Shown here: in pieces, positions 52,236-64,000 of the stretch
Numbering within the stretch: position 1 is the stretch's first letter
Layout of the letters: each line of letters starts with the position of its first letter
From: Catenulispora pinistramenti
GTDB taxonomy: Bacteria > Actinomycetota > Actinomycetes > Streptomycetales > Catenulisporaceae
Assembly: GCF_018274385.1 (NCBI RefSeq)
Contig: NZ_JAAFYZ010000028.1
Location: forward strand, 1 to 64,000
DNA length: 64,000 bases
Direction of reading: 5' to 3'
Notes under the pieces: model-generated
What the model saw: the letters and a program-made list of their open reading frames with translations, nothing else
The model's database searches: none
What the model was told of the DNA's origin: nothing
Translations under genes and position numbers: made by a program

Positions 52236-53789
52236 GCGGCTTCCGCCGCTCGCGCGGAGAGAACTACCGCCTTGGCGATCTCCTTGGCTCTCATCGCGAT
52301 CCACCTCCGCTCGCGCGGAGAGAACGAGCTGCTCGGCCCCCTCCCGCTCGAGGACGTCGATCCACCTCCGCTCGCGCGGAGAGAACTCCTGGCGGTCGGT
52401 GGCGGCGGGCGCCTCCGGCAATCCACCTCCGCTCGCGCGGAGAGAACGGTTCGGCTCTGAAGCTGTTGAACGATCTCGACGATCCACCTCCGCTCGCGCG
52501 GAGAGAACACCGCAACCGGCCGCCGTCCGGACCGACCGTGAAGATCCACCTCCGCTCGCGCGGAGAGAACTTCTCCGTCGCCGACGGCGCGGGCGCCATC
52601 ATCGATCCACCTCCGCTCGCGCGGAGAGAACGTCCGGGGAGCGGCCGAGACGCTTCTTGGTCTCGATCCACCTCCGCTCGCGCGGAGAGAACGGCCTGCG
52701 CAAGCTGCTCGAAGCGAAGGACTGCGATCCACCTCCGCTCGCGCGGAGAGAACGCCAACTCGACACGCCGACGCGATGCCCGCGACGATCCACCTCCGCT
52801 CGCGCGGAGAGAACGACGCCATCCACGCGGCCGGCCTGAACGTCCGCGATCCACCTCCGCTCGCGCGGGGAGAACAAGGAGCGCCTGATGGTCACCCTCG
52901 ACGAACTCGATCCACCTCCGCTCGCGCGGAGAGAACCTGACCGCACAGGCGATGCGAAATGACGCGACCGATCCACCTCCGCTCGCGCGGAGAGAACGAC
53001 CACTACTTCTGCGGCCGGCACCGCGACCACGATCCACCGCCGCTCGCGCGGAGAGAACACAGCCGCCGGGTTCATCGTCTGGTCCTGGACCGATCCACCT
53101 CCGCTCGCGCGGAGAGAACCGTTGCCGGTGACGGTGCAGACACGGAGACTCCGATCCACCTCCGCTCGCGCGGAGAGAACTCGGCCTGCGCCTTTGCGGC
53201 GGCGGCCTGGGCCGATCCACCTCCGCTCGCGCGGAGAGAACGACGTCCACGAGCTGAAGACCTCCCGCTCCGACGATCCACCTCCGCTCGCGCGGAGAGA
53301 ACAAAACGGCGCCCTGGATCATCTCGCAGTCGTAGATCCACCTCCGCTCGCGCGGAGAGAACCCGCGGAACACGCCGATCAGCGTCGAGCAGACCGATCC
53401 ACCTCCGCTCGCGCGGAGAGAACGGCAGCAGCACCACCAAGTACTGGCTGCGCCCCGATCCACCTCCGCTCGCGCGGAGAGAACGACCTAGCCCCCGCGA
53501 GGATCCCGCCGTGAACCGATCCACCTCCGCTCGCGCGGAGAGAACGAGGTCAACGACATGCTCGCCGATCCCGATGCCGATCCACCTCCGCTCGCGCGGA
53601 GAGAACCCGGTGGCTTGCTGTCGGGCCTTCGCCCGCTGCGATCCACCTCCGCTCGCGCGGAGAGAACGCGACCGCCCCGGTGATTCGGGAGCCGTTGCGC
53701 GATCCACCTCCGCTCGCGCGGAGAGAACTCAGGGTCAGAGATACGGAATCGGCTGGAGCGCGATCCACCTCCGCTCGCGCGGAGAGAAC
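52236..53789 (-). CRISPR. Type I-E CRISPR array 1 (26 repeats, 25 spacers)
   Basis: 29-nt repeats at a 61-nt period. In the crRNA (minus) sense the repeat begins GTTCTCTCC, has stem CTCCGC/GCGGAG with loop GCGA, and ends GGTGGATCG. The leftmost unit (52236-52264) is degenerate, as expected at the leader-distal end. Other variants: 52420 (A for G), 52848-52875 (GGGGAG on plus), 53031-53058 (CCACCG on plus). Two periods differ: 62 nt (52481 to 52543) and 60 nt (53275 to 53335). All spacers look unique; several translate without stops. Only 21 nt separate the last repeat from cas2. Confidence 0.99.
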
Positions 53790-53810
53790 CCTTCACGACC
53801 TGCACTACGG

Positions 53811-54125
53811 CTAGGACGTGGCCGTTTCGTTATCTTCTTCCAGCTGGTTCAACGCCACCAATGCCAGACCCTCAAAGTCGACGACCTCTCGCCTCCATGT
53901 CCCGGCTGTCTGAATTGCGAATCGCTGCTCGGTGTCGGCGGGATACACCAGCACCGCTGCGCCGTCGCTGACACTCGCTGACACCACGGCCCAAAGTTCT
54001 TCTCGAACCTTCGCAGACAGTGTTCCTACGTAGAGTCCGGGGGCTGGTTCTAGCATCCAGCGGCTAAGTGCGCCCCGGACATAGGCTGGGACAGCACTGG
54101 TGTTGATGACTGTCAGGTTGGCCAT
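53811..54125 (-). CDS. cas2: Cas2e, CRISPR adaptation
   Basis: A 104-aa Cas2 of the type I-E branch (LTVINTSAVPAYVRGALSRW, then EPAPGLYVGTLSAKVREELW). It should dimerise between Cas1 dimers in the integrase complex. It overlaps the cas1 stop by 13 nt. Its stop codon is 21 nt from the first repeat of array 1, so any leader signals must extend into its 3' coding region. Confidence 0.95.
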   Translation of the reverse strand: MANLTVINTSAVPAYVRGALSRWMLEPAPGLYVGTLSAKVREELWAVVSASVSDGAAVLVYPADTEQRFAIQTAGTWRREVVDFEGLALVALNQLEEDNETATS

Positions 54126-55204
54126 GAGCTGCTTGGTTCCTCATCGGCGTCGGTCCAGTCAGCGATGTCTTCCTTAGCCGGTGCGCCGACGCGGTCGGCG
54201 TAGTTTGTGCCTCCAGCGAGGGTTCCGGCTTGGGGATCCCACAGGTGCACAAGTTCGACGTCGTCGATGTCGAAGCCCTCGTCATCGGGCGCTTGAGCGC
54301 CATCGGGTTCGAGAAGGTTCTGGATGTCGCGAACGATCCGCGGCATGAGCCGATATAGCCGCAGCTTGCTACGGAAGGCACGTCGAGCGTCGCCTTCTGG
54401 GTCGTCCGAATTGTGCAGCGAGAAGGCCACCGGCAGCGTCAGCTCAGCCTTGTACAGGTCGGCGACGTCGTAAACGAAGGAATGGGTGGTGCCGGTGTGG
54501 ACGAACCCAAGTCCCGGAGAGCAGCCGAGCGCGATGATCGCGGCGTGCACGATGCCGTAGAGACAGATGTTCGCGGCCGAAAGGGCCAGGTTGACGGGGT
54601 CTTGGCCTTCCCAATCATGGGGATCGTAGGAGCGTTTGAAGCGCGGTAGCCGGTGTTGTGTGGCCAACAGCCGGTATAGGGCCTTCATGCGCTGGCCTTC
54701 CAACCCGCGGAGTTGGGCGAGGTTCGTCGCCGCCGGCACCGTACCGCCAAAGCGCATCTGGTACATCCGCGCCGCAACGTCAAGTCGCGCCTGCTCGTCG
54801 GCCCACGCCGCGGCTTGGGCTTCGAGCCAGCGGCTGCTTTGGCCCGGAGCGACGATTCCGGCGTAGGTGCGAACGGCGGCGGCGCCGGTACACACCACAG
54901 TGGTTCCGTGGCGAGCTAGAGTCGCCAGAGCAGGAGCTGTGATCGAGGTGCCTGGCCCGAGTAGAAGGCAGCTGAGTGCCGCGGTAGGGATGCGCAGCCG
55001 CCTGACTGGCGCTGCCTCGGAAGGGAAGGCGATCAGTCCGGTGTCGTCCTGGATGATCCGCATCATGTCCAGGTAAAGGAAGGACAGGCTGTCGCCGATG
55101 CGCGGCAGCATCGCTGCGGTGGGTACGGCGATCTTCCGGCGTGCTTCCCGGCTGGTCGGGGCGGCCCGGGCCGCTGACGTGGGCTCCGGCGGCTGACCGG
55201 TCAT
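54113..55204 (-). CDS. cas1: Cas1e, CRISPR integrase
   Basis: A 363-aa Cas1, longer than the usual about 300 residues by an acidic C-terminal tail (DDEGFDIDDVELVHLWDP, end DADEEPSSSWPT). Metal ligands are visible in GLEGQRMKALY (Glu, about 170), FVHTGTTHSFVYDVADLYK (His and Asp, about 240-255). It overlaps cas6e (ATGA) and cas2. The N-terminal about 20 residues are Ala/Pro-rich and could be an extension. Confidence 0.96.
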   Translation of the reverse strand: MTGQPPEPTSAARAAPTSREARRKIAVPTAAMLPRIGDSLSFLYLDMMRIIQDDTGLIAFPSEAAPVRRLRIPTAALSCLLLGPGTSITAPALATLARHGTTVVCTGAAAVRTYAGIVAPGQSSRWLEAQAAAWADEQARLDVAARMYQMRFGGTVPAATNLAQLRGLEGQRMKALYRLLATQHRLPRFKRSYDPHDWEGQDPVNLALSAANICLYGIVHAAIIALGCSPGLGFVHTGTTHSFVYDVADLYKAELTLPVAFSLHNSDDPEGDARRAFRSKLRLYRLMPRIVRDIQNLLEPDGAQAPDDEGFDIDDVELVHLWDPQAGTLAGGTNYADRVGAPAKEDIADWTDADEEPSSSWPT

Positions 55205-55857
55205 CGTGTGGGTGCCAGGGTGAGCAGTCCGCAGCCGTATGACTTTCCGCGGCCTATTCCGGCGAGGATCCGGGTGCGGAGGAGTTGCGGGTCGGTGATG
55301 ATGGCGGTGCCGTCAAACTGGGTGCGGGCGTGTCGCTGTGGCTGCTGGTCCCTTGTTTGGGGATCGGTGCGGAGTCCGGTGGCGGCGTTGACGGCTTGCG
55401 CGTCGATGCTGCGAACGTCCAGGCCTGAGAGCTCAGCCTGCCGTATCCACCACTGTTCGGCATCGGCGCCTGACAGGGGCACAATCTGATGCGGTTTGCC
55501 TGCTTTTGTATTGAGGCCAAGCTTCTGGGTGGCGTTTCCGGCCAGGCGATACCGCACGGGCAGACCGGGCCGCAGTGCATCGAGGAGCAGGTCCAGCGGT
55601 CGACTGATCACCTCGCCGTAGCCGGCGGGCAGGCGTTCGGCGTTGGGTTCGATCGTACTTTGGACGAGGATCGTGATCCCGCCGATGGCACTTTGGTCGA
55701 CGCGAAACAGCACCCCTGCGGTTTGTCGGGCTTGGGGACCCAACTGGTCGGGAAACAGCTTCATGACGGTGTGGTGCATCTGGACTGCGTTGTTCAGGTC
55801 CGTCGCGGCTCGCTGGTGTCGTAGGTCTGGTGTAATGCGGGTGAGCCAGGTGGTCAT
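55201..55857 (-). CDS. cas6e: Cas6e/CasE, pre-crRNA endonuclease
   Basis: A 218-aa RAMP protein that cuts repeats at the base of the hairpin. ATG 55857 (MTTWLTRITPD) overlaps the cas5 stop by ATGA and is preferred over the longer frame. A His near MHHTVMKLFP (about 30) may be the general base, and the C-terminal G-rich loop GIGRGKSYGCGLLTL is typical of CasE. It must recognise the 6-bp stem kept in arrays 1, 2 and the mini-array. Confidence 0.94.
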   Translation of the reverse strand: MTTWLTRITPDLRHQRAATDLNNAVQMHHTVMKLFPDQLGPQARQTAGVLFRVDQSAIGGITILVQSTIEPNAERLPAGYGEVISRPLDLLLDALRPGLPVRYRLAGNATQKLGLNTKAGKPHQIVPLSGADAEQWWIRQAELSGLDVRSIDAQAVNAATGLRTDPQTRDQQPQRHARTQFDGTAIITDPQLLRTRILAGIGRGKSYGCGLLTLAPTR

Positions 55858-56735
55858 TGATCGACCTCTGTGTTCGCGTCGGCTGGCGTGTTCGCCGTCA
55901 TGGTTTGGAGGGTTGCCGCGAGGCGTTTGAGGTAGGGCGTGCCGAGTCCGGCGCATGAATCAGCAGGCGCGGCGAAGTCTCGCCGGTACAAGTCGCGTCG
56001 CCGGTAGGCGCGGTCCATCGCGCCGAAGGTGATATGCGGATCGTCGGTGATGGTGCTGGAGGTTTCGACACCGCGTGCTTCCCAACCTGTCGGTGTCGGC
56101 AGCTCCCGCATTGGCTGATCGGCCCAGTAAGTGACGTCGATGGTGTTGTCTGGTTTCCATGGCTGCGTTCGGTGAAGCGGCAGGGCGCCCAGGCTGTGCC
56201 AGGTGTCGTTGGAGGCGGTCACGTAGATCGGTGTTCCTGCGGGGCAGGATCTGCGACCCAGGTAAGGCGGCCAGAACGGTTTCTGCAGCGCCTCGCCGCA
56301 TCGTGTAAGCAGCCCGGCGTCTTCGTCCGCGGAGCCGGCAGTGGTGACGGCGACTGTGAAGGCGGCGTCTTGAAGGTAGTAGCGGGTAGACACCAGGGTC
56401 GCGGTATCCCCGCCACGGCGTCCGCCTTCGGCTGTCGCGATGGTCCGTTCCCGGGGATAGCCGCCACCGACGGTGTGGAAGTCCCGCAGAAGGGTCCCAG
56501 GCCGGTCGACTCGTATCGTGAACCGCAGCTGGGCCAGCTCTCCGAACGGTTCGTCGCGGCGCACACCGCGCGCTGCGGCGATCATGCCGATCAGTCCGGA
56601 GCGGGTCGGCATACGGGCCGTGTCGCGCTGGGTGAATCGCGAGCGCTCGCCCCAAGACTGCACGGGCCCGGACAGATGCAGGATCAAGCCTGGTGCTGGC
56701 GTGTACGGGAGGTCGCCCGCGGCTGATACCGGCAC
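55854..56735 (-). CDS. cas5e: Cas5e/CasD, Cascade subunit
   Basis: A 293-aa RAMP protein that binds the 5' handle of crRNA. The N-terminal GLILHLSGPVQSWGERSRFT is the Cas5e signature, with SGLIGMIAAARGV next. GTG 56735, 5 nt after the cas7 stop, is the first start in frame outside cas7. It is longer than usual (about 225-250) owing to the C-terminal extension after RDFAAPADSC. Confidence 0.93.
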   Translation of the reverse strand: MPVSAAGDLPYTPAPGLILHLSGPVQSWGERSRFTQRDTARMPTRSGLIGMIAAARGVRRDEPFGELAQLRFTIRVDRPGTLLRDFHTVGGGYPRERTIATAEGGRRGGDTATLVSTRYYLQDAAFTVAVTTAGSADEDAGLLTRCGEALQKPFWPPYLGRRSCPAGTPIYVTASNDTWHSLGALPLHRTQPWKPDNTIDVTYWADQPMRELPTPTGWEARGVETSSTITDDPHITFGAMDRAYRRRDLYRRDFAAPADSCAGLGTPYLKRLAATLQTMTANTPADANTEVDQ

Positions 56736-56739
56736 GGTG

Positions 56740-57963
56740 TCACTGTCCGTTGCGCGGCGCAAACGCGGCGGTCGCGGCTGCGGAGACCAGGTCGTCAACG
56801 GATTCGAGACGCTCGCCCAGGCCAGCCGTGTCCAGGGCGCTGGTGCCAGCACATGCCTGGGCCAGCGGAGCCCGGGAGGCGCCCATCAGCGTGTTCAGTG
56901 CGCTGGCGTAGTTGTTCAGCTCACGGATGGAGGCTGCGGTGTATCCCTCCCCGCTTTCCTGGATGACGGGAGCCTCGAAAGCGGAGACATACGACAGCGG
57001 CCGGTCAGCACGCACGGCCATGGCGATGAAGTCCGGGAAGGTGTGGGGCGCGGTGGAGTTCTTCTTGGCCTGCGGCAGTGCATTGATGGCCGCGGTTAGG
57101 AACGCTTGGGCCAGCTTGCGGGCATCCTCGGCTCCGCCGACGTTGCGCAGCAGCTCGGCCATATCGATCGTGGTGTAGCGGTAGAAGGTGCCGGCGCTGT
57201 ATTCGTTGTGACCCATGTGAGCGCTCCCGGACTGGTCGCCCCAGGCTTCGGTGATGTCGTCGACGGCGCTGAAGTAGTCGATCTCGATGTCGGTGGCGTG
57301 GGTGGAGATGACGTGCGCTACCTGGACGGACCCATCGACGCCGGCGCGGTCGAGTTCGGCGAGCATCCGGCCCATCAGATTGATGATGCCGTTGCGGGAG
57401 CGCAGGATGTCGTCGATCTTCTCGCCGGGCATCACGCTCTTGGCGGTGGCGACGGCCTTACCGTCGTGGCTCTTGAGATCGGTCGCGGCCTGGAGCTGGT
57501 CCCGAAACTCGATCGCGATCGCGCCCAACTCGGTAACGGCGGCCTCCGGGACATAGACCATGGCGTTGGTCCCCCATGGCACATCCGCCTCGCCGCCGGA
57601 GTCGGGCATCTCACCGCTCTTCTTAGGCTTGGGTGCCTTCGCACCGACGCTGCTGGCCATCACGGTGTAGATGCCGGCGCGGGTCGCCAACTCAGACGGC
57701 CAGCCCAGATCTTCGTGCAGGTGTCGGCGAATCGCCTCGGCGAGCCGACGGGTACGCAACGTCTGCTGTCCGAGCGCCTGCTCGACGTCGAGGCGGATCG
57801 CCCGCTTCCAAGACTGCGAGCTGATTCGGGTGCGGTTCACGCCGCCGAATTGCACCGTCTTCACCGAGTTGGTGTCGTCCCGGTTGAGATTCGCGAAAGG
57901 CAAGGACTGGATGACGTGTAGGTCAATGAAGCGTCCGGCGGGCAGTGCTGTTGCGGTTTTCAC
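56740..57963 (-). CDS. cas7e: Cas7e/CasC (Cse4), Cascade backbone
   Basis: A 407-aa backbone subunit, six copies of which coat the spacer and force every sixth base out of the helix. FIDLHVIQSLPFANLNRDDT and QFGGVNRTRISSQSWKRAIR are the N-terminal Cas7e hallmarks. GTG 57963 follows AAAGGAG. The 58-bp gap to cse2 is the only break in the operon's coupling. Confidence 0.96.
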   Translation of the reverse strand: MKTATALPAGRFIDLHVIQSLPFANLNRDDTNSVKTVQFGGVNRTRISSQSWKRAIRLDVEQALGQQTLRTRRLAEAIRRHLHEDLGWPSELATRAGIYTVMASSVGAKAPKPKKSGEMPDSGGEADVPWGTNAMVYVPEAAVTELGAIAIEFRDQLQAATDLKSHDGKAVATAKSVMPGEKIDDILRSRNGIINLMGRMLAELDRAGVDGSVQVAHVISTHATDIEIDYFSAVDDITEAWGDQSGSAHMGHNEYSAGTFYRYTTIDMAELLRNVGGAEDARKLAQAFLTAAINALPQAKKNSTAPHTFPDFIAMAVRADRPLSYVSAFEAPVIQESGEGYTAASIRELNNYASALNTLMGASRAPLAQACAGTSALDTAGLGERLESVDDLVSAAATAAFAPRNGQ

Positions 57964-58021: not shown

Positions 58022-58672
58022 TCAGCCTGCAGCGGTGTTCGGTCCGGCAGACGATGCGGATGCTCCGGTGTCCATCGCCTTCTTGGCCGCGTCGCGCTCG
58101 GCCCGGTTGAGCGTGTGGAAGAAGCTCTGCTGCCAGCGGCGTACAACAGCGCCTCGGTTCGTGGGCCAGGACTCCAGATCGGCAAGCAGTTGGACCCAGT
58201 CCACGGCATCGGGATCCACCGCGATCTGGCTGATGACGCCGGGCAGGCGGCGGTGTACGCCGCCGGTACTCTGTTTCGCCAAGGTCGCCAGAGTGGTCTC
58301 GCCGGAGCCCAGGGACACTGCACCGTTGAGGACCGCTTCGGCGAGACACTGTCCCAGGTTCCGGCCCCAGCGCTGCCCGGGCTCCACCACGATCGGTAGC
58401 TTCGGCAGCATCCGTTTTGGGATCATCGCGATCAGCGCCGCCACGGTGTAGTAGGCGTGAACCTGCTCCGGTCTGCGCTCCCCCGGGTCTGCTGGGGCGC
58501 CGGCCTTGGTGACGTACTTGTGCGTGCCGGCAGGCAGTGCGTCGTATGGCTTTCGCAACCCGCCGCGCAGTGCGGACCGAGCGCCCGTCTCATCAGCACA
58601 GACGGTGATGATGGCGGTGACGAAGGTTCGGAACCCCCGCCGCCGTTCGGTTTCGGTGGCCATCGTGGTCAC
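58022..58672 (-). CDS. cse2: Cse2/CasB, Cascade small subunit
   Basis: A 216-aa helical small subunit. VHAYYTVAALIAMIPKRMLP, NLGQCLAEAVLNGAVSLG, GVHRRLPGVISQI and the basic C-terminus WQQSFFHTLNRAE match Cse2. GTG 58672 overlaps the cse1 stop (GTGA); ATG 58663 is possible. Stabilises the R-loop in the type I-E complex. Confidence 0.94.
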   Translation of the reverse strand: MTTMATETERRRGFRTFVTAIITVCADETGARSALRGGLRKPYDALPAGTHKYVTKAGAPADPGERRPEQVHAYYTVAALIAMIPKRMLPKLPIVVEPGQRWGRNLGQCLAEAVLNGAVSLGSGETTLATLAKQSTGGVHRRLPGVISQIAVDPDAVDWVQLLADLESWPTNRGAVVRRWQQSFFHTLNRAERDAAKKAMDTGASASSAGPNTAAG

Positions 58673-60225
58673 GTGGACTCCTTGGTCGCAGACGGCTTGG
58701 GCTTCAGGTGCGAAAGTCGGCCCCCGTACAGCTCGACGCGTGCGGTCTCCACTGCCCGCGCTCCCCGCATCGAATTGCACGCGTCGGTGGTGACGGCGTC
58801 ATAGGCGCTGGTAGCCAGAGCGCGGAAGGCCTTGTTCAGGCCGTCGAAGTCTTGGTCTGCCAGACAGCGCCAGAACAGGTCCTCAGCCTGCGGCCAGTAC
58901 ATGGCGGCAGTTTGCCGAGACCAGGCGCACTCCCGAATCTTCTCCTTGGCGTACAGCGACCACGCCGTCTTCGCGGCTCGATCCAGGTTTCGCCCAATGC
59001 GCTCGCCGGCCGCGCGTAGGTCCGCGATCCGCCGACCGAGCTCAGCCTTGGCTTCCTTGTGGGCGTTCACGATCGGTGGGGTCAGGCCTTCCACGAACTG
59101 GGTGTCCTTGGCTTGGCCGTCCTGCTCGAATCCCAATGCCTGGACCCGGTAGAGCCCGTCGATCTCAGGCATGTCCTCGAAAATCGACGGTTGAGGGTTG
59201 GGACCTGACGTCGGAGCCTCGCCCAGGAGACCGTCCAAGTCACGCCACAGCGCACGAGACGAATCAGCACGGCGGGCGTAACGCTTGTTCTCTTTGCTCA
59301 GTAGCCAGCACAGGAACGGATCCTCTGGCGCTGCTACGGCGTCGCGGTAGGCCCAGGTGATATAGGCGTCGATGATGCTGTTTCGATCGGGGCCCAGGAC
59401 GAGGAGCAGGGCATGCTGGGACCGGGCCGTCAGCGACGCACCAGTTCCGGCCGCCTGTGGCGGGATCGATGTCGGGTCAGGAAGTTCGTCCCATTCCCAC
59501 GGACACAGGTCTTGGCCCGGAGTTTGCGACGGGTTAGGCTCCGGAATTCCTGCGATCAAAGTTTCGAATAGTCCGGGGCCGACGAGATGATAGGAGATCG
59601 TCGAGCGCAGCGGGCCGGCTTTGGTGTCCGCCTTCGACGTGTCGCCTACAGTTCGAGTCGCGCATCTCCCCGAGGAACCGTAGTACAGCCAGACCAGCAG
59701 GTGCTGGAACGCCTGGGGCAGTGGCACCGGGAGGGGGTGGGCGTCGGAATGGGCGCCGCCGAACCACCGGTGGTTGTTCCCCGCGGGCCGCCCAATGACC
59801 ACTTTGTTGATACCAGCCGGCTTTTCGCATTCTGTCGCCAGACGCGGGTCCTGCAGAAACGGCCGCTGCGGATCGCACAGGTCGAAGCGGCTCGCGAACC
59901 GGTCGCAGTAGTCATCGACGGCGTCAGGATCGAAATGTCCTGCATCCAGGAGTTCGGCGCGACGCTCACGCCAGTCGTCCGAGTCTGCGCCGAGCTGGTC
60001 AAGCCCGCTGACTCGGGCCGCCAGCGCGTACAGGAGCCGGTATGACGCGGACAACGCGGGCGGGTTGATCGCGTCGATAGTCTTGATGAGGTGGGCGTTC
60101 CGGAGAACCTCGCCCAGCCCCAGGGCGACACGGTCTGCCAGATCATCGGGAACAGGCTGGTCATCTCGCCAAGTAGTGGATATCCAATCCCCAGCGAGTA
60201 CGCTTGTCGACGGATCAGAGGGCAT
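58669..60225 (-). CDS. cse1: Cse1/CasA, Cascade large subunit (PAM recognition)
   Basis: A 518-aa Cas8e-type subunit that reads the PAM and recruits Cas3. N-terminal LAGDWISTTWRDDQPVPDDL, the RFDLCDPQRPFLQDP region and the C-terminal four-helix bundle are as in CasA. ATG 60225 has GGAG 7 nt upstream. It heads the leftward operon; the 300-bp gap before it holds the mini-array and promoter-like boxes. Confidence 0.94.
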   Translation of the reverse strand: MPSDPSTSVLAGDWISTTWRDDQPVPDDLADRVALGLGEVLRNAHLIKTIDAINPPALSASYRLLYALAARVSGLDQLGADSDDWRERRAELLDAGHFDPDAVDDYCDRFASRFDLCDPQRPFLQDPRLATECEKPAGINKVVIGRPAGNNHRWFGGAHSDAHPLPVPLPQAFQHLLVWLYYGSSGRCATRTVGDTSKADTKAGPLRSTISYHLVGPGLFETLIAGIPEPNPSQTPGQDLCPWEWDELPDPTSIPPQAAGTGASLTARSQHALLLVLGPDRNSIIDAYITWAYRDAVAAPEDPFLCWLLSKENKRYARRADSSRALWRDLDGLLGEAPTSGPNPQPSIFEDMPEIDGLYRVQALGFEQDGQAKDTQFVEGLTPPIVNAHKEAKAELGRRIADLRAAGERIGRNLDRAAKTAWSLYAKEKIRECAWSRQTAAMYWPQAEDLFWRCLADQDFDGLNKAFRALATSAYDAVTTDACNSMRGARAVETARVELYGGRLSHLKPKPSATKEST

Positions 60226-60261
60226 AGGCGGTCTCCGATTCAATCACGGGTAAGAAGCTCA

Positions 60262-60351
60262 CAGTTCCCTGCGAAAGCGGGGGTGGCCCCGCGTGGTTCT
60301 ATTGCGCGCACCATGGGCGAACGCTGTCTCCGCGTGAGCGGAGGTTGCGCC
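60262..60351 (+). CRISPR. Degenerate repeat-spacer-repeat unit in the cas3-cse1 gap (crRNA-like RNA candidate)
   Basis: Two repeat-like units lie exactly 61 nt apart, the array period. Unit 1 (60262-60290) keeps about 17 of 29 repeat bases. Its stem is CCCTGC/GCGGGG with a GAAA loop, in the exact register of the normal stem, and GGTGG follows. Unit 2 (60323-60351) keeps 22 of 29 bases compared with array 1, with stem CTCCGC/GCGGAG intact. Between them is a 32-nt pseudo-spacer (60291-60322) starting GCGTGGTTCTATTG. The orientation is plus, opposite to the cas genes. Stem-preserving changes suggest Cas6e processing is retained. No confident promoter is seen upstream, inside the cse1 5' end. Confidence 0.8.
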
Positions 60352-60486
60352 ATGGCGGTGGCCGGAGAGGGGCACACCTCTGCGGCCACCGCCGACCGCC
60401 GGGTCCGGAACGCCGACCGGCCGAGCGCTCACTGTGACTGTATGGCCACTGCGCGCATGGCCGCTACCTCTTTCAGGCAGAAGGCA

Positions 60487-60521
60487 AAGGCGTGTTTCTA
60501 GTGGATCTATACAGGCGTCAA
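60487..60521 (-). promoter_or_regulatory. Probable cas operon promoter overlapped by a pseudo-spacer target
   Basis: On the minus strand there are TTGACG (60521-60516) and TATAGA (60511-60506), promoter-like boxes just after the cas3 stop and upstream of cse1. They are not ideally spaced with each other: TATAGA may use another -35, or TTGACG may use TAGAAA at 60500-60495. On the plus strand AAG (60487-60489) is followed by GCGTGTTTCTAGTG, matching pseudo-spacer positions 1-5, 7-11 and 13-14. A 32-nt protospacer (60490-60521) would cover all these boxes. Confidence 0.65.
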
Positions 60522-60524
60522 GAG

Positions 60525-63410
60525 TCAGTCGCGGTGGAGCCCTGTTGAAGTCCCCTGATAATGCAGGTACGGGCTGTGTAAGGAGCGCCACCCATCCCCA
60601 TCGGCGATCCCCTCGGCCAGCACCAACCCCCGCAACAGCGGATGTTTGGCCCAGGCGGCCGGCGCCTCACCGATGGCCGGGTGGTTGCTGACCCACCTGC
60701 CCGGCACGGGAACCATGTGCTCCATGACCTGCCGCACATGCGCCGCTGCTATCGGCCTATCGACAGGTGCCGTCCCCCTGGCATCGAGCGTGCGTGAGCC
60801 GTCAGCCTGGCGGTAGACGAGCACGACACGGGCGCTGTCGGCGCCCAGACGCGTGACGACGAACTCCTCCATTCCATCAGTCATCTGCGCATCACCGAGT
60901 TCGACGGCAAGGTTCTTCGCCTTAGCTGTCGGAGCCTTGATCATGACGTTCGCGGCGAGTTGCTGCTCGGCGATCAACGTCCCGAGGTATTCGTTATCTG
61001 CGTCGCGGAGCTCCTTCAGGTCCTGCTCGCCCGCCTGCTCGCGCCGGTCAACGAAGTCCTCGGCATACACCTCGTCTACGAGGTACTGAACATCGGTTGG
61101 GATCACGATAGGTTCCTGGCCGCGCTCGCGAAGCACCCTGCTGGTGCGTTTCAGGAGGCTTTCGAAATACACGGCGCCCCACTGAGGCGGCTTAGCCATC
61201 GCGCCGTCTTTGTCGACGGGCTCTAGAACAACCAACCGGGCGCCTCTTGGACGAGGCGTCGGGGTGTCACCCATCGCCTCCGTCGAGCAGTCGCGAGCCG
61301 GGTTTGTCCATGCAGGTCTTGGCCCGCGCTCATGCCGACGTCCCCGTCCAGCGCGCTGCAACAGCAGCGCGATCGGAGCTAAATCGGTGATGACCAGGTC
61401 AAAGTCCAGATCGATGGACTGCTCGACCACCTGCGTAGCCACCAGGATCGACGCCCTGGGCCGGCTGGGGGAATCGCCTCGTGCATCCGGCTTGCCGTAG
61501 GCGGCTTCCGCAGCGCTGCTGATTCGAGCACGGTCTTTGGACTGGAAACGAGAATGCAGAAGATCGAGTTGAACCGAGACACCAGACACCCCAACGAACG
61601 TCGAGGCAAGCTGGTTGTAAGTCGCCTGGGCCTCAGCAACTGTGTTGCAGCAGATCAGTACGCACCCTCCGGCGCGGGGAAGGTCGTCGACCAGATCCGA
61701 TATCACCGACAACCGCTCGAGAACCTGTCCTGTGACATCCTCCGCGCCTGCCGCGACCGGCACAAGTTCAACGTACAGATCGCTGGGTCGGCTGGTGCCC
61801 ACAGGAACGGGCTCTGATACCGCACCGCTGGTCCCGTCCACGAAAAGCCAGCCCGGGTAGATGGGGACCACAGATGATGGTGCCGCCACTGCTCCGAGAA
61901 CGCCACGGCGGTAGGCGTCGACGAGGTCCTGCGCCGTTCGCCCAGAGAGAGTCGCCGACATCACGACGACTGGTGATCCCATCGCCCCAAGCCACTCCAA
62001 GGCCCGCAGCAGCAGGGCGTGCATCCACGGGCCATAGCTATGTGCCTCATCGATCACGACGGTCTTGCCGACCAGACCGAACATCCGCAGCATGTTGTGC
62101 CTTATCGGCAGGACGCCAGCGAGGATCTGATCGATCGTCATGGCACCCAGCGGCGCTAGAATCCCGCGTTTGCCGGCACGCAGCCACTGGGAAGCCACCA
62201 CCATGTCCGCGTCTTCGGACGTGAGGATGGGCGACCCTTCAACCGACGCCTCAGCCAGCGCACCAAAGTCGGAATTCAACCAAGCCATGGAGTGCATGAG
62301 CGCGATCGCGGCCGAATCGGTCAAATGCAGTTCGGCGAACTTCTTCAACCGACGGAACATTGCATCTGTCGTCGCCATGGTCGGTAGACCAAAAGCGAAC
62401 CCTCCAGCGCCGGCAACCTCGTGGAAGTGCAAGGTCGCCAATTGCGACGCCTCGGTCTTACCATCACCGGGTGGCGCAGTCACCAAGAGCAGACCAGAGT
62501 TGCGGACCATCGCAGGCAGCTGGTGGATCAGCGAGGCCTGCAGCTGATTCGGCGGAAAACCAAAGCGCGCCTCAAACTCCGCGTCATCCTTCGGCATCGG
62601 ATGAAACCGTGCGCGCCCGAGTCCGGCAGCACGAACCACGGCTGGAGCATCGCTCACGGCCGCGTCCCAGTGCCGTCTCACATTCTTGTCGGTAGCCTGC
62701 CACCCCTCCTCGGGCAGACGGCCAGCGGAGGTAATAAACGACTCCTGGCTTGCCAGCCAGTCCGCACAAACCACCAGCCCCAGCACCACAGCCACCGCAG
62801 CACTCGACGGCCGCTGGGTCACGCCACTGGCCTCCGCCGCACCAGTCAACTCAGCAATCACACGAACGTGAGCTGACCGCTGCCCCTGCCACTCACCCTC
62901 CCCCAACGGCGTGACGAACCGACCTACCGGATCGCGCATCTCCTCCGGACGCAACGCAGCGTGGGCACGCCCGTGATGGCGACTGAGCAACTGCGCGAAG
63001 ACATGAGCCGCACCATCGGTCCGACCTGAGTAGCCCATATCCGGCAGCAAATCAGCCAGGATGTAGAGCGCAGCCTTGTCATGACCGAACCTGGCGTCGT
63101 CCTCAGTCTGGGGCGCGGTGATGTAGGCGGGATCGTTCCACAGCGATCCGCAAAGGTCGCGGCACTGGGCTTGGAAAGCTACTGAGATTTTGCCGATATC
63201 ATGCAGCCCCGCCCAAAACATCACCAGAGAGCGACACACCTGCGGCTCGACCTTCAAACCAGCGGCAAGTCTCCCGACGAGATCAGGACTCATCAACGCG
63301 TCAAACAGCGCGCCAGCTATCGCCGCAGTATCCATGAGGTGACAGAGCACCGGATACGGCCGCTCAAGATGGTCCGTCGACTTGGCCCACAAGCGACAGT
63401 CAGCAACCAT
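60525..63410 (-). CDS. cas3: Cas3 helicase-nuclease, type I-E
   Basis: A 961-aa effector recruited by Cascade to degrade target DNA. The HD nuclease has CHLMDTAAIAG (about 23), LHDIGKISVAFQ (about 68) and LSRHHGR. The SF2 helicase has Walker A TAPPGDGKTEAS (about 305), VIDEAHSYGPW (about 452), VVMSATLSG (about 485), and VATQVVEQSIDLDFD. ATG 63410 (MVADCRLWAKSTDHLERPYP) fits family N-termini; the open frame continues to a TTG at 63476 with GGAG only 3 nt away. It is separated from cse1 by 300 bp, so it has its own promoter. Confidence 0.96.
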   Translation of the reverse strand: MVADCRLWAKSTDHLERPYPVLCHLMDTAAIAGALFDALMSPDLVGRLAAGLKVEPQVCRSLVMFWAGLHDIGKISVAFQAQCRDLCGSLWNDPAYITAPQTEDDARFGHDKAALYILADLLPDMGYSGRTDGAAHVFAQLLSRHHGRAHAALRPEEMRDPVGRFVTPLGEGEWQGQRSAHVRVIAELTGAAEASGVTQRPSSAAVAVVLGLVVCADWLASQESFITSAGRLPEEGWQATDKNVRRHWDAAVSDAPAVVRAAGLGRARFHPMPKDDAEFEARFGFPPNQLQASLIHQLPAMVRNSGLLLVTAPPGDGKTEASQLATLHFHEVAGAGGFAFGLPTMATTDAMFRRLKKFAELHLTDSAAIALMHSMAWLNSDFGALAEASVEGSPILTSEDADMVVASQWLRAGKRGILAPLGAMTIDQILAGVLPIRHNMLRMFGLVGKTVVIDEAHSYGPWMHALLLRALEWLGAMGSPVVVMSATLSGRTAQDLVDAYRRGVLGAVAAPSSVVPIYPGWLFVDGTSGAVSEPVPVGTSRPSDLYVELVPVAAGAEDVTGQVLERLSVISDLVDDLPRAGGCVLICCNTVAEAQATYNQLASTFVGVSGVSVQLDLLHSRFQSKDRARISSAAEAAYGKPDARGDSPSRPRASILVATQVVEQSIDLDFDLVITDLAPIALLLQRAGRGRRHERGPRPAWTNPARDCSTEAMGDTPTPRPRGARLVVLEPVDKDGAMAKPPQWGAVYFESLLKRTSRVLRERGQEPIVIPTDVQYLVDEVYAEDFVDRREQAGEQDLKELRDADNEYLGTLIAEQQLAANVMIKAPTAKAKNLAVELGDAQMTDGMEEFVVTRLGADSARVVLVYRQADGSRTLDARGTAPVDRPIAAAHVRQVMEHMVPVPGRWVSNHPAIGEAPAAWAKHPLLRGLVLAEGIADGDGWRSLHSPYLHYQGTSTGLHRD

Positions 63411-63479
63411 CACCCGAGATTGATCGCGATCTCCTGACTCCACGCTGGCGAGCCAACCACAGACCTCCGACAACAACTC

Positions 63480-63670
63480 CAGACCACGCGCAGGCGGACA
63501 CGGTGCCCCGGCAACCTATGTGATCGCCCATCCGCCCGACAATGACGTCTCCGAACCGCGCTCCAGTAGGCTCCACACGTGCCTCTATCCAACTCGAAGC
63601 AGACGACGCAATGCCTCAAGGGCTGAGTCACGTTTCAGTAACGTAGAACTGCCGCCCCAGGTCGGGAAGG
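63480..63670 (+). promoter_or_regulatory. Leader of array 2 and divergent cas3 promoter region
   Basis: 191 bp between the cas3 5' end (minus) and the first array 2 repeat (plus). By repeat polarity this is the leader-proximal side of array 2. The last 40 bp before the repeat include CACGTTTCAGTAACGTAGAA, an AT-richer patch as in I-E leaders. Contains no gene. Confidence 0.6.
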
Positions 63671-64000
63671 GTTCTCTCCGCGCAGGCGGAGGTGGTTCGC
63701 CGTACTCGGCCGCCTCAGCGAGGTATCTGGCGTTCTCTCCGCGCAGGCGGAGGTGGTTCGGCGTGACGCCGGGCGAGGAAGCGCTGGCGGCCGTTCTCTC
63801 CGCGCAGGCGGAGGTGGTTCGGCGGCAAACTGCGCCTGGCCTGGTTCGCCGACGTTCTCTCCGCGCAGGCGGAGGTGGTTCGCCCCGCGAGGAGGCGCCC
63901 CCGGCCGCGGTGGAGTTCTCTCCGCGCAGGCGGAGGTGGTTCGAAGTCCTCCCCGTGCTGTCCCCGGGCGCCGCGGTTCTCTCCGCGCAGGCGGAGGTGG
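63671..64000 (+). CRISPR. Type I-E CRISPR array 2 (6 repeats visible, runs off the window)
   Basis: 29-nt repeats start at 63671, 63732, 63793, 63854, 63915 and 63976 (the last cut after 25 nt), period 61, spacers 32 nt. The repeat differs from array 1: the hairpin loop is GCAG instead of GCGA, and the 3' end GGTGGTTCG instead of GGTGGATCG. Orientation is plus, opposite to array 1. The visible repeats are identical to each other, as expected near a leader. Confidence 0.99.

Follow-up and report, generated by a model that had tools for sequence, protein, structure and literature searches.

A CreR-like mini-CRISPR and its candidate operator in the cas3-cse1 gap of a type I-E system, with matched guide-target pairs in actinobacterial relatives

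The window, that is, the whole 64,000-nucleotide stretch of DNA analysed here, encodes, on its minus strand, a complete type I-E system, and all of its cas genes are recognised by NCBIfam models. The gene cas3 (60525-63476; TIGR01587 and TIGR01596) is followed by a gap of 281 bp and then by the series cse1-cse2-cas7-cas5-cas6-cas1-cas2, which runs from 60243 down to 53811. This series consists of cse1 (cas8e; 58669-60243; TIGR02547, 3e-61), which heads the operon presumed to be repressed, cse2 (cas11; 58022-58780; TIGR02548), cas7e (56740-57885; TIGR01869, 1.3e-75), whose start codon assignment is provisional, cas5e (55854-56852; TIGR01868), cas6e (55201-55956; TIGR01907), cas1e (54113-55204; TIGR03638, 5.7e-102), and cas2e (53811-54125; TIGR01873). 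At L018 (G000:C112:82522-83358), a weak second Cse1-like match within one genome (25% identity, 552-aa open frame) perhaps belongs to a second I-E system.

Two canonical CRISPR arrays with a 61-nt period flank the cas system. Array 1 (52265-53790, minus strand) has the repeat GTTCTCTCCGCGCGAGCGGAGGTGGATC, and array 2 (63670-64000, plus strand), which runs off the window, has the repeat GTTCTCTCCGCGCAGGCGGAGGTGGTTC. The two repeats differ slightly, in the loop (GCGA vs GCAG) and at the end (GATC vs GTTC), and the arrays face outward, one on each side of the cas genes.

A mini-array of two repeats (60262-60351) is found in the cas3-cse1 gap; it keeps the canonical 61-nt period and lies on the plus strand, opposite to the cas genes, at a locus that encodes its cognate Cascade and Cas6. 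The first-pass annotation had described two repeat-like units 61 nt apart, with hairpins in register and a 32-nt pseudo-spacer, and these coordinates hold; the gap in which it had placed them also stands, but its size is 281 rather than 300 bp. Degenerate repeat 1 (psiR1, 60262-60290) consists of a hairpin (60267-60282) followed by the 8-nt 5' handle GTGGCCCC (60283-60290). Its stem, CCCTGC-GAAA-GCGGGG, has 6 bp and a 4-nt GAAA loop and is fully paired, partly by compensated changes. The pseudo-spacer (60291-60322, GCGTGGTTCTATTGCGCGCACCATGGGCGAAC) is 32 nt long. Degenerate repeat 2 (psiR2, 60323-60351) supplies the 3' hairpin, with the stem CTCCGC-GTGA-GCGGAG and a 4-nt loop, while its 3' tail is decayed. 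Compared with the array 1 repeat, unit 1 (60262-60289) is identical at 17/28 positions and unit 2 (60323-60350) at 22/28. Unit 2 is the top repeat-like site in the window when the canonical arrays are excluded. The identity of unit 1 is unexceptional on its own, since several window sites score at least 17, so the case for unit 1 is made by its register, hairpin, and handle.

Cas6e cleaves after the repeat stem in type I-E systems. Cuts after each of the two stems are predicted to release a mature RNA of 61 nt (60283-60343) composed of the handle, the spacer, and the hairpin of unit 2 (60323-60343), an assignment based on I-E repeat anatomy and the conservation pattern described below. A strong inverted repeat of 17 bp (60354-60393, plus strand; about -39 kcal/mol) lies directly downstream of unit 2, and comparable hairpins occur at the same place in about ten relatives. 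It lacks a T-tract, although it possibly marks the end of the transcript. The Rfam search gave no match.

A candidate target for the pseudo-spacer lies in the same gap, upstream of cse1 (60490-60521, plus strand), directly after the trinucleotide AAG (60487-60489), which would serve as its PAM. The spacer start GCGTGGTTCTATTG and the target start GCGTGTTTCTAGTG agree at positions 1-5, 7-11, 13, and 14. An AAG-flanked partial match with mismatches at 6 and 12 had already been pointed out from the letters of the window, and it proved to be unique in the genome: the pattern GCGTGNTTCTANTG occurs in the 11.46 Mb only in the spacer and the target, 199 nt apart. When every sixth base is skipped, 60490-60521 is by far the top site in the window, the runner-up reaching 10 nt with the PAM TCA; the whole-window scan gave no guide target at the 5' side of cas3 itself. 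With shuffled spacers, the chance of a 10/10 seed at one of the six AAG sites in the gap was about 8e-6, and none of the 27 canonical spacers of the window exceeded 6/10 at these sites.

Whether pseudo-spacer and target vary together in related gaps had been set beforehand as a check, and we examined it in 103 distinct cse1 upstream regions of actinobacteria. Mini-arrays were chosen by structure only (two hairpins in register plus the handle start), which gave 30 candidates in 28 loci; 28 of these candidates matched their own gap at 9/12 or better, no PAM being demanded. Although not demanded, AAG preceded the best site in 24/28, and 27/28 shared the strand; the control reached at least 9/12 with AAG in only 6/900 trials. 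The AAG and the strand are what separate signal from chance here, because unrelated gaps often reach 9/12 when no PAM is demanded. Allowing a variable loop size and requiring an AAG-flanked target at 9 or more of the 10 seed positions gave 38 loci. The final set of 39 pairs comprises these 38 loci and two loci with the second unit out of register, minus one weak case (L025, 9/10); L007 was dropped for want of a proper repeat handle.

Matched pairs of mini-array and target are therefore counted in 39 of the 103 regions, with 37 different seeds, and each guide matches its own gap. Spacers matched the gaps of other loci at that quality in only 14/3876 comparisons, some of them possibly between close relatives. 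A scan of 2.3 Mb for the whole combination returned 34 matches, all in cse1 upstream gaps except one, from L037. The sister locus from the genus of the window (L003) carries a different seed, AGGTTnGTCT, matched at 9/10 in its own gap, and compensatory seed changes were seen in close pairs at position 5 (L042/L109), position 9 (L092/L098), and position 11 (L105/L110). The outcome of the check was strongly positive, and the evolution of the pairs in relatives speaks strongly for the predicted function.

The distribution of the unit is patchy. More than 60 of the 103 loci have no detectable unit, including a same-family relative without a gap (L002), and nothing convincing was found upstream of cas3 in the loci that lack a gap unit. 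At the first detection level, units were present in 27/59 loci with a cas3-cse1 gap of 100-500 bp vs 1/31 with a shorter one. Mapped on the Cse1 tree, the trait requires at least 25 changes, of which 18 are forced by well supported branches, which indicates that it was often gained and lost, or else missed by the detector.

The agreement between guide and target is unevenly distributed along the 39 pairs. It amounts to 0.97-1.00 at positions 1-5 and 0.85-1.00 at 7-11, values that are partly high by construction, because these positions served for selection, whereas positions 6, 12, and beyond did not; there it falls to 0.23 at both 6 and 12, lies at 0.56-0.85 at 13-16, and is about chance from approximately 17 on. 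When the twelve positions were weighted equally, as in the 28 structure-only loci, positions 6 and 12 agreed in 10/28 and the others in 23-28. During Cascade pairing every sixth base is turned out. We take the agreement profile found in the 39 pairs to be the imprint of base pairing by Cascade. The repeats are also unevenly conserved across relatives: the handle is better kept in unit 1 (identity 0.83 vs 0.50 for the unit 2 tail) and the stem-loop in unit 2 (0.88 vs 0.78 in unit 1), and these better conserved parts would be the ones entering the mature guide.

These data bear directly on the alternative that the mini-array is what decay has left of a normal array, and that its spacer matches the gap either accidentally or as a case of self-targeting. 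Its repeats are degenerate, as such a remnant would predict; of the marks of a canonical array, near-identical repeats are missing and a foreign origin of the spacer was not detected. No exact match to the first 20 nt of the spacer was found in viral contigs, and phage records gave only weak partial matches, none covering most of the spacer. The handle and stem are conserved, the PAM and strand are matched, and independent matched pairs with different seeds occur in 39 gaps; contradicted by this covariation, the remnant can be given practically no credence.

Regarding the layout, all 39 loci have the target upstream of cse1. In 37/39 the mini-array stands between target and cse1, in the presumed operon leader, and runs antisense to the cas operon. 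The exceptions are L083, where the target is situated between the unit and cse1, and L048, where the unit runs in the sense direction. A -10-like TANNNT whose start is 4-9 nt away from protospacer position 1 was present in 16/38 loci vs 1.4 expected, an excess whose p-value of 1e-13 is overstated because many of the loci are related. In these loci, the -35 side of the promoter would lie beneath Cascade when it is bound. In the window, this hexamer is absent beside the target, and the promoter scan found no sigma-70-like promoter in 60150-60650. The first-pass annotation had proposed a promoter facing cse1 formed by TTGACG and TATAGA; the cse1 strand does contain both boxes, yet they are only 4 bp apart and are not a -35/-10 pair at this spacing. 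The best candidate in the window, TTGACG and TAGAAA separated by 15 nt, is too weak to claim, and no constant -10 motif was established ahead of unit 1.

Six loci (L041, L048, L051, L064, L070, and L092) possess a second AAG-flanked site on the same strand, with 8-9/10 of the seed, 23-62 nt from the first, and these same-strand sites appear to be tandem Cascade operators. In L045 the second site is inverted.

The position of the unit within the leader of the operon, antisense to it in 37/39 loci, raises the idea of a transcriptional toggle, in which CreR would repress the cse1 promoter while transcription from this promoter, running antisense through creR, silences creR, giving two stable states. 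The layout may, however, be inherited or merely compact, and neither the sense layout of L048 nor the L083 target between unit and cse1 fits such a circuit; we consider the toggle unlikely. The same low expectation applies to its general form, in which actinobacterial I-E systems, whose creR lies antisense within the leader of its own target operon and which in some cases have tandem operators, would have a two-state immunity switch instead of simple negative feedback.

The same layout speaks to a CreTA-like addiction module, where the guide would repress a small toxin (RNA or peptide) lying between target and cse1, with the cas genes only incidental. CreA follows the same seed rule and has degenerate repeats (PMC8501985, PMC9458426). 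The presumed cse1 leader also contains a 9-codon frame, MRAVAIQSQ (60429-60458, minus strand), preceded by a Shine-Dalgarno-like GAGG, which may be there by chance. Those relatives that were inspected by eye did not show this frame, though, and in several relatives only 38-54 nt separate unit and target, the rest of the leader being the unit itself. Since the target is also directly upstream of cse1 in 39/39 loci, and no toxin gene was recognised at the mini-array locus, an addiction module seems very improbable.

From its anatomy, the match, the uniqueness of the match, and the co-evolution in relatives, the unit is very probably a creR-type gene whose Cascade-bound guide would repress the cse1-cas2 operon. 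The CreR-like reading had been advanced on the window alone, and the covariation supports it, the promoter boxes apart. In the proposed mechanism, a short plus-strand transcript would be cut by Cas6e in both degenerate repeats, and the resulting 61-nt crRNA-like RNA would be loaded into the Cascade of the same locus. The complex would then bind the AAG-flanked site by pairing at the ten seed positions (1-5 and 7-11) and at 13-14, and block transcription of cse1-cse2-cas7-cas5-cas6-cas1-cas2 from the presumed promoter, so that Cascade keeps down its own production. Pairing that ends at 14 is proposed to be too short for Cas3 to be recruited and to cleave. The repression would be lifted when Cascade is drawn off by canonical crRNAs or anti-CRISPRs, and according to reviews (PMC12737573, PMC13131331), CreR repression is indeed lifted by competition from ordinary crRNAs or by removal of Cascade by anti-CRISPRs.

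With dozens of relatives carrying their own matched version, the window offers an unusually strong case for a known kind of self-regulation, and points, on evolutionary grounds alone, to several actinobacterial families in which cas genes are autoregulated through an RNA guide. The 39 pairs of guide and operator form a natural data set, in which selection shows the base pairs that Cascade reads (not 6 and 12) and how far the pairing allowed for binding may reach, up to about 14-17 nt. Should self-repression be the normal state of actinobacterial I-E systems, it would bear on their apparent activity in the laboratory and on ways to switch them on.

Liu et al. reportedly described CreR (cas-regulating RNA) mini-CRISPRs in types I-B, I-E, and V-A in 2023 in Cell Host Microbe. 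As CreR has already been described in type I-E, the window unit is a further case of a known type of regulation. It resembles CreR in being a degenerate mini-CRISPR with one spacer-like sequence at the cas locus of a type I-E Cascade, and in its limited complementarity, confined mainly to the seed, to a PAM-flanked site upstream of cas genes; unlike the CreR of Liu et al., it is known from sequence alone. With CreTA of type I-B it shares two degenerate repeats, the first of which is more diverged, as reported for CreTA (PMC9458426), and the seed rule with positions 6 and 12 free, the 1-5/7-11 seed of CreA having been shown by mutation (PMC8501985). Unlike CreTA, whose partner is a toxin, the window unit has its target upstream of cas genes, which it presumably controls. 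Compared with these systems, possible novelties are the wide occurrence in actinobacteria, the antisense placement within the leader, and the second same-strand operators.
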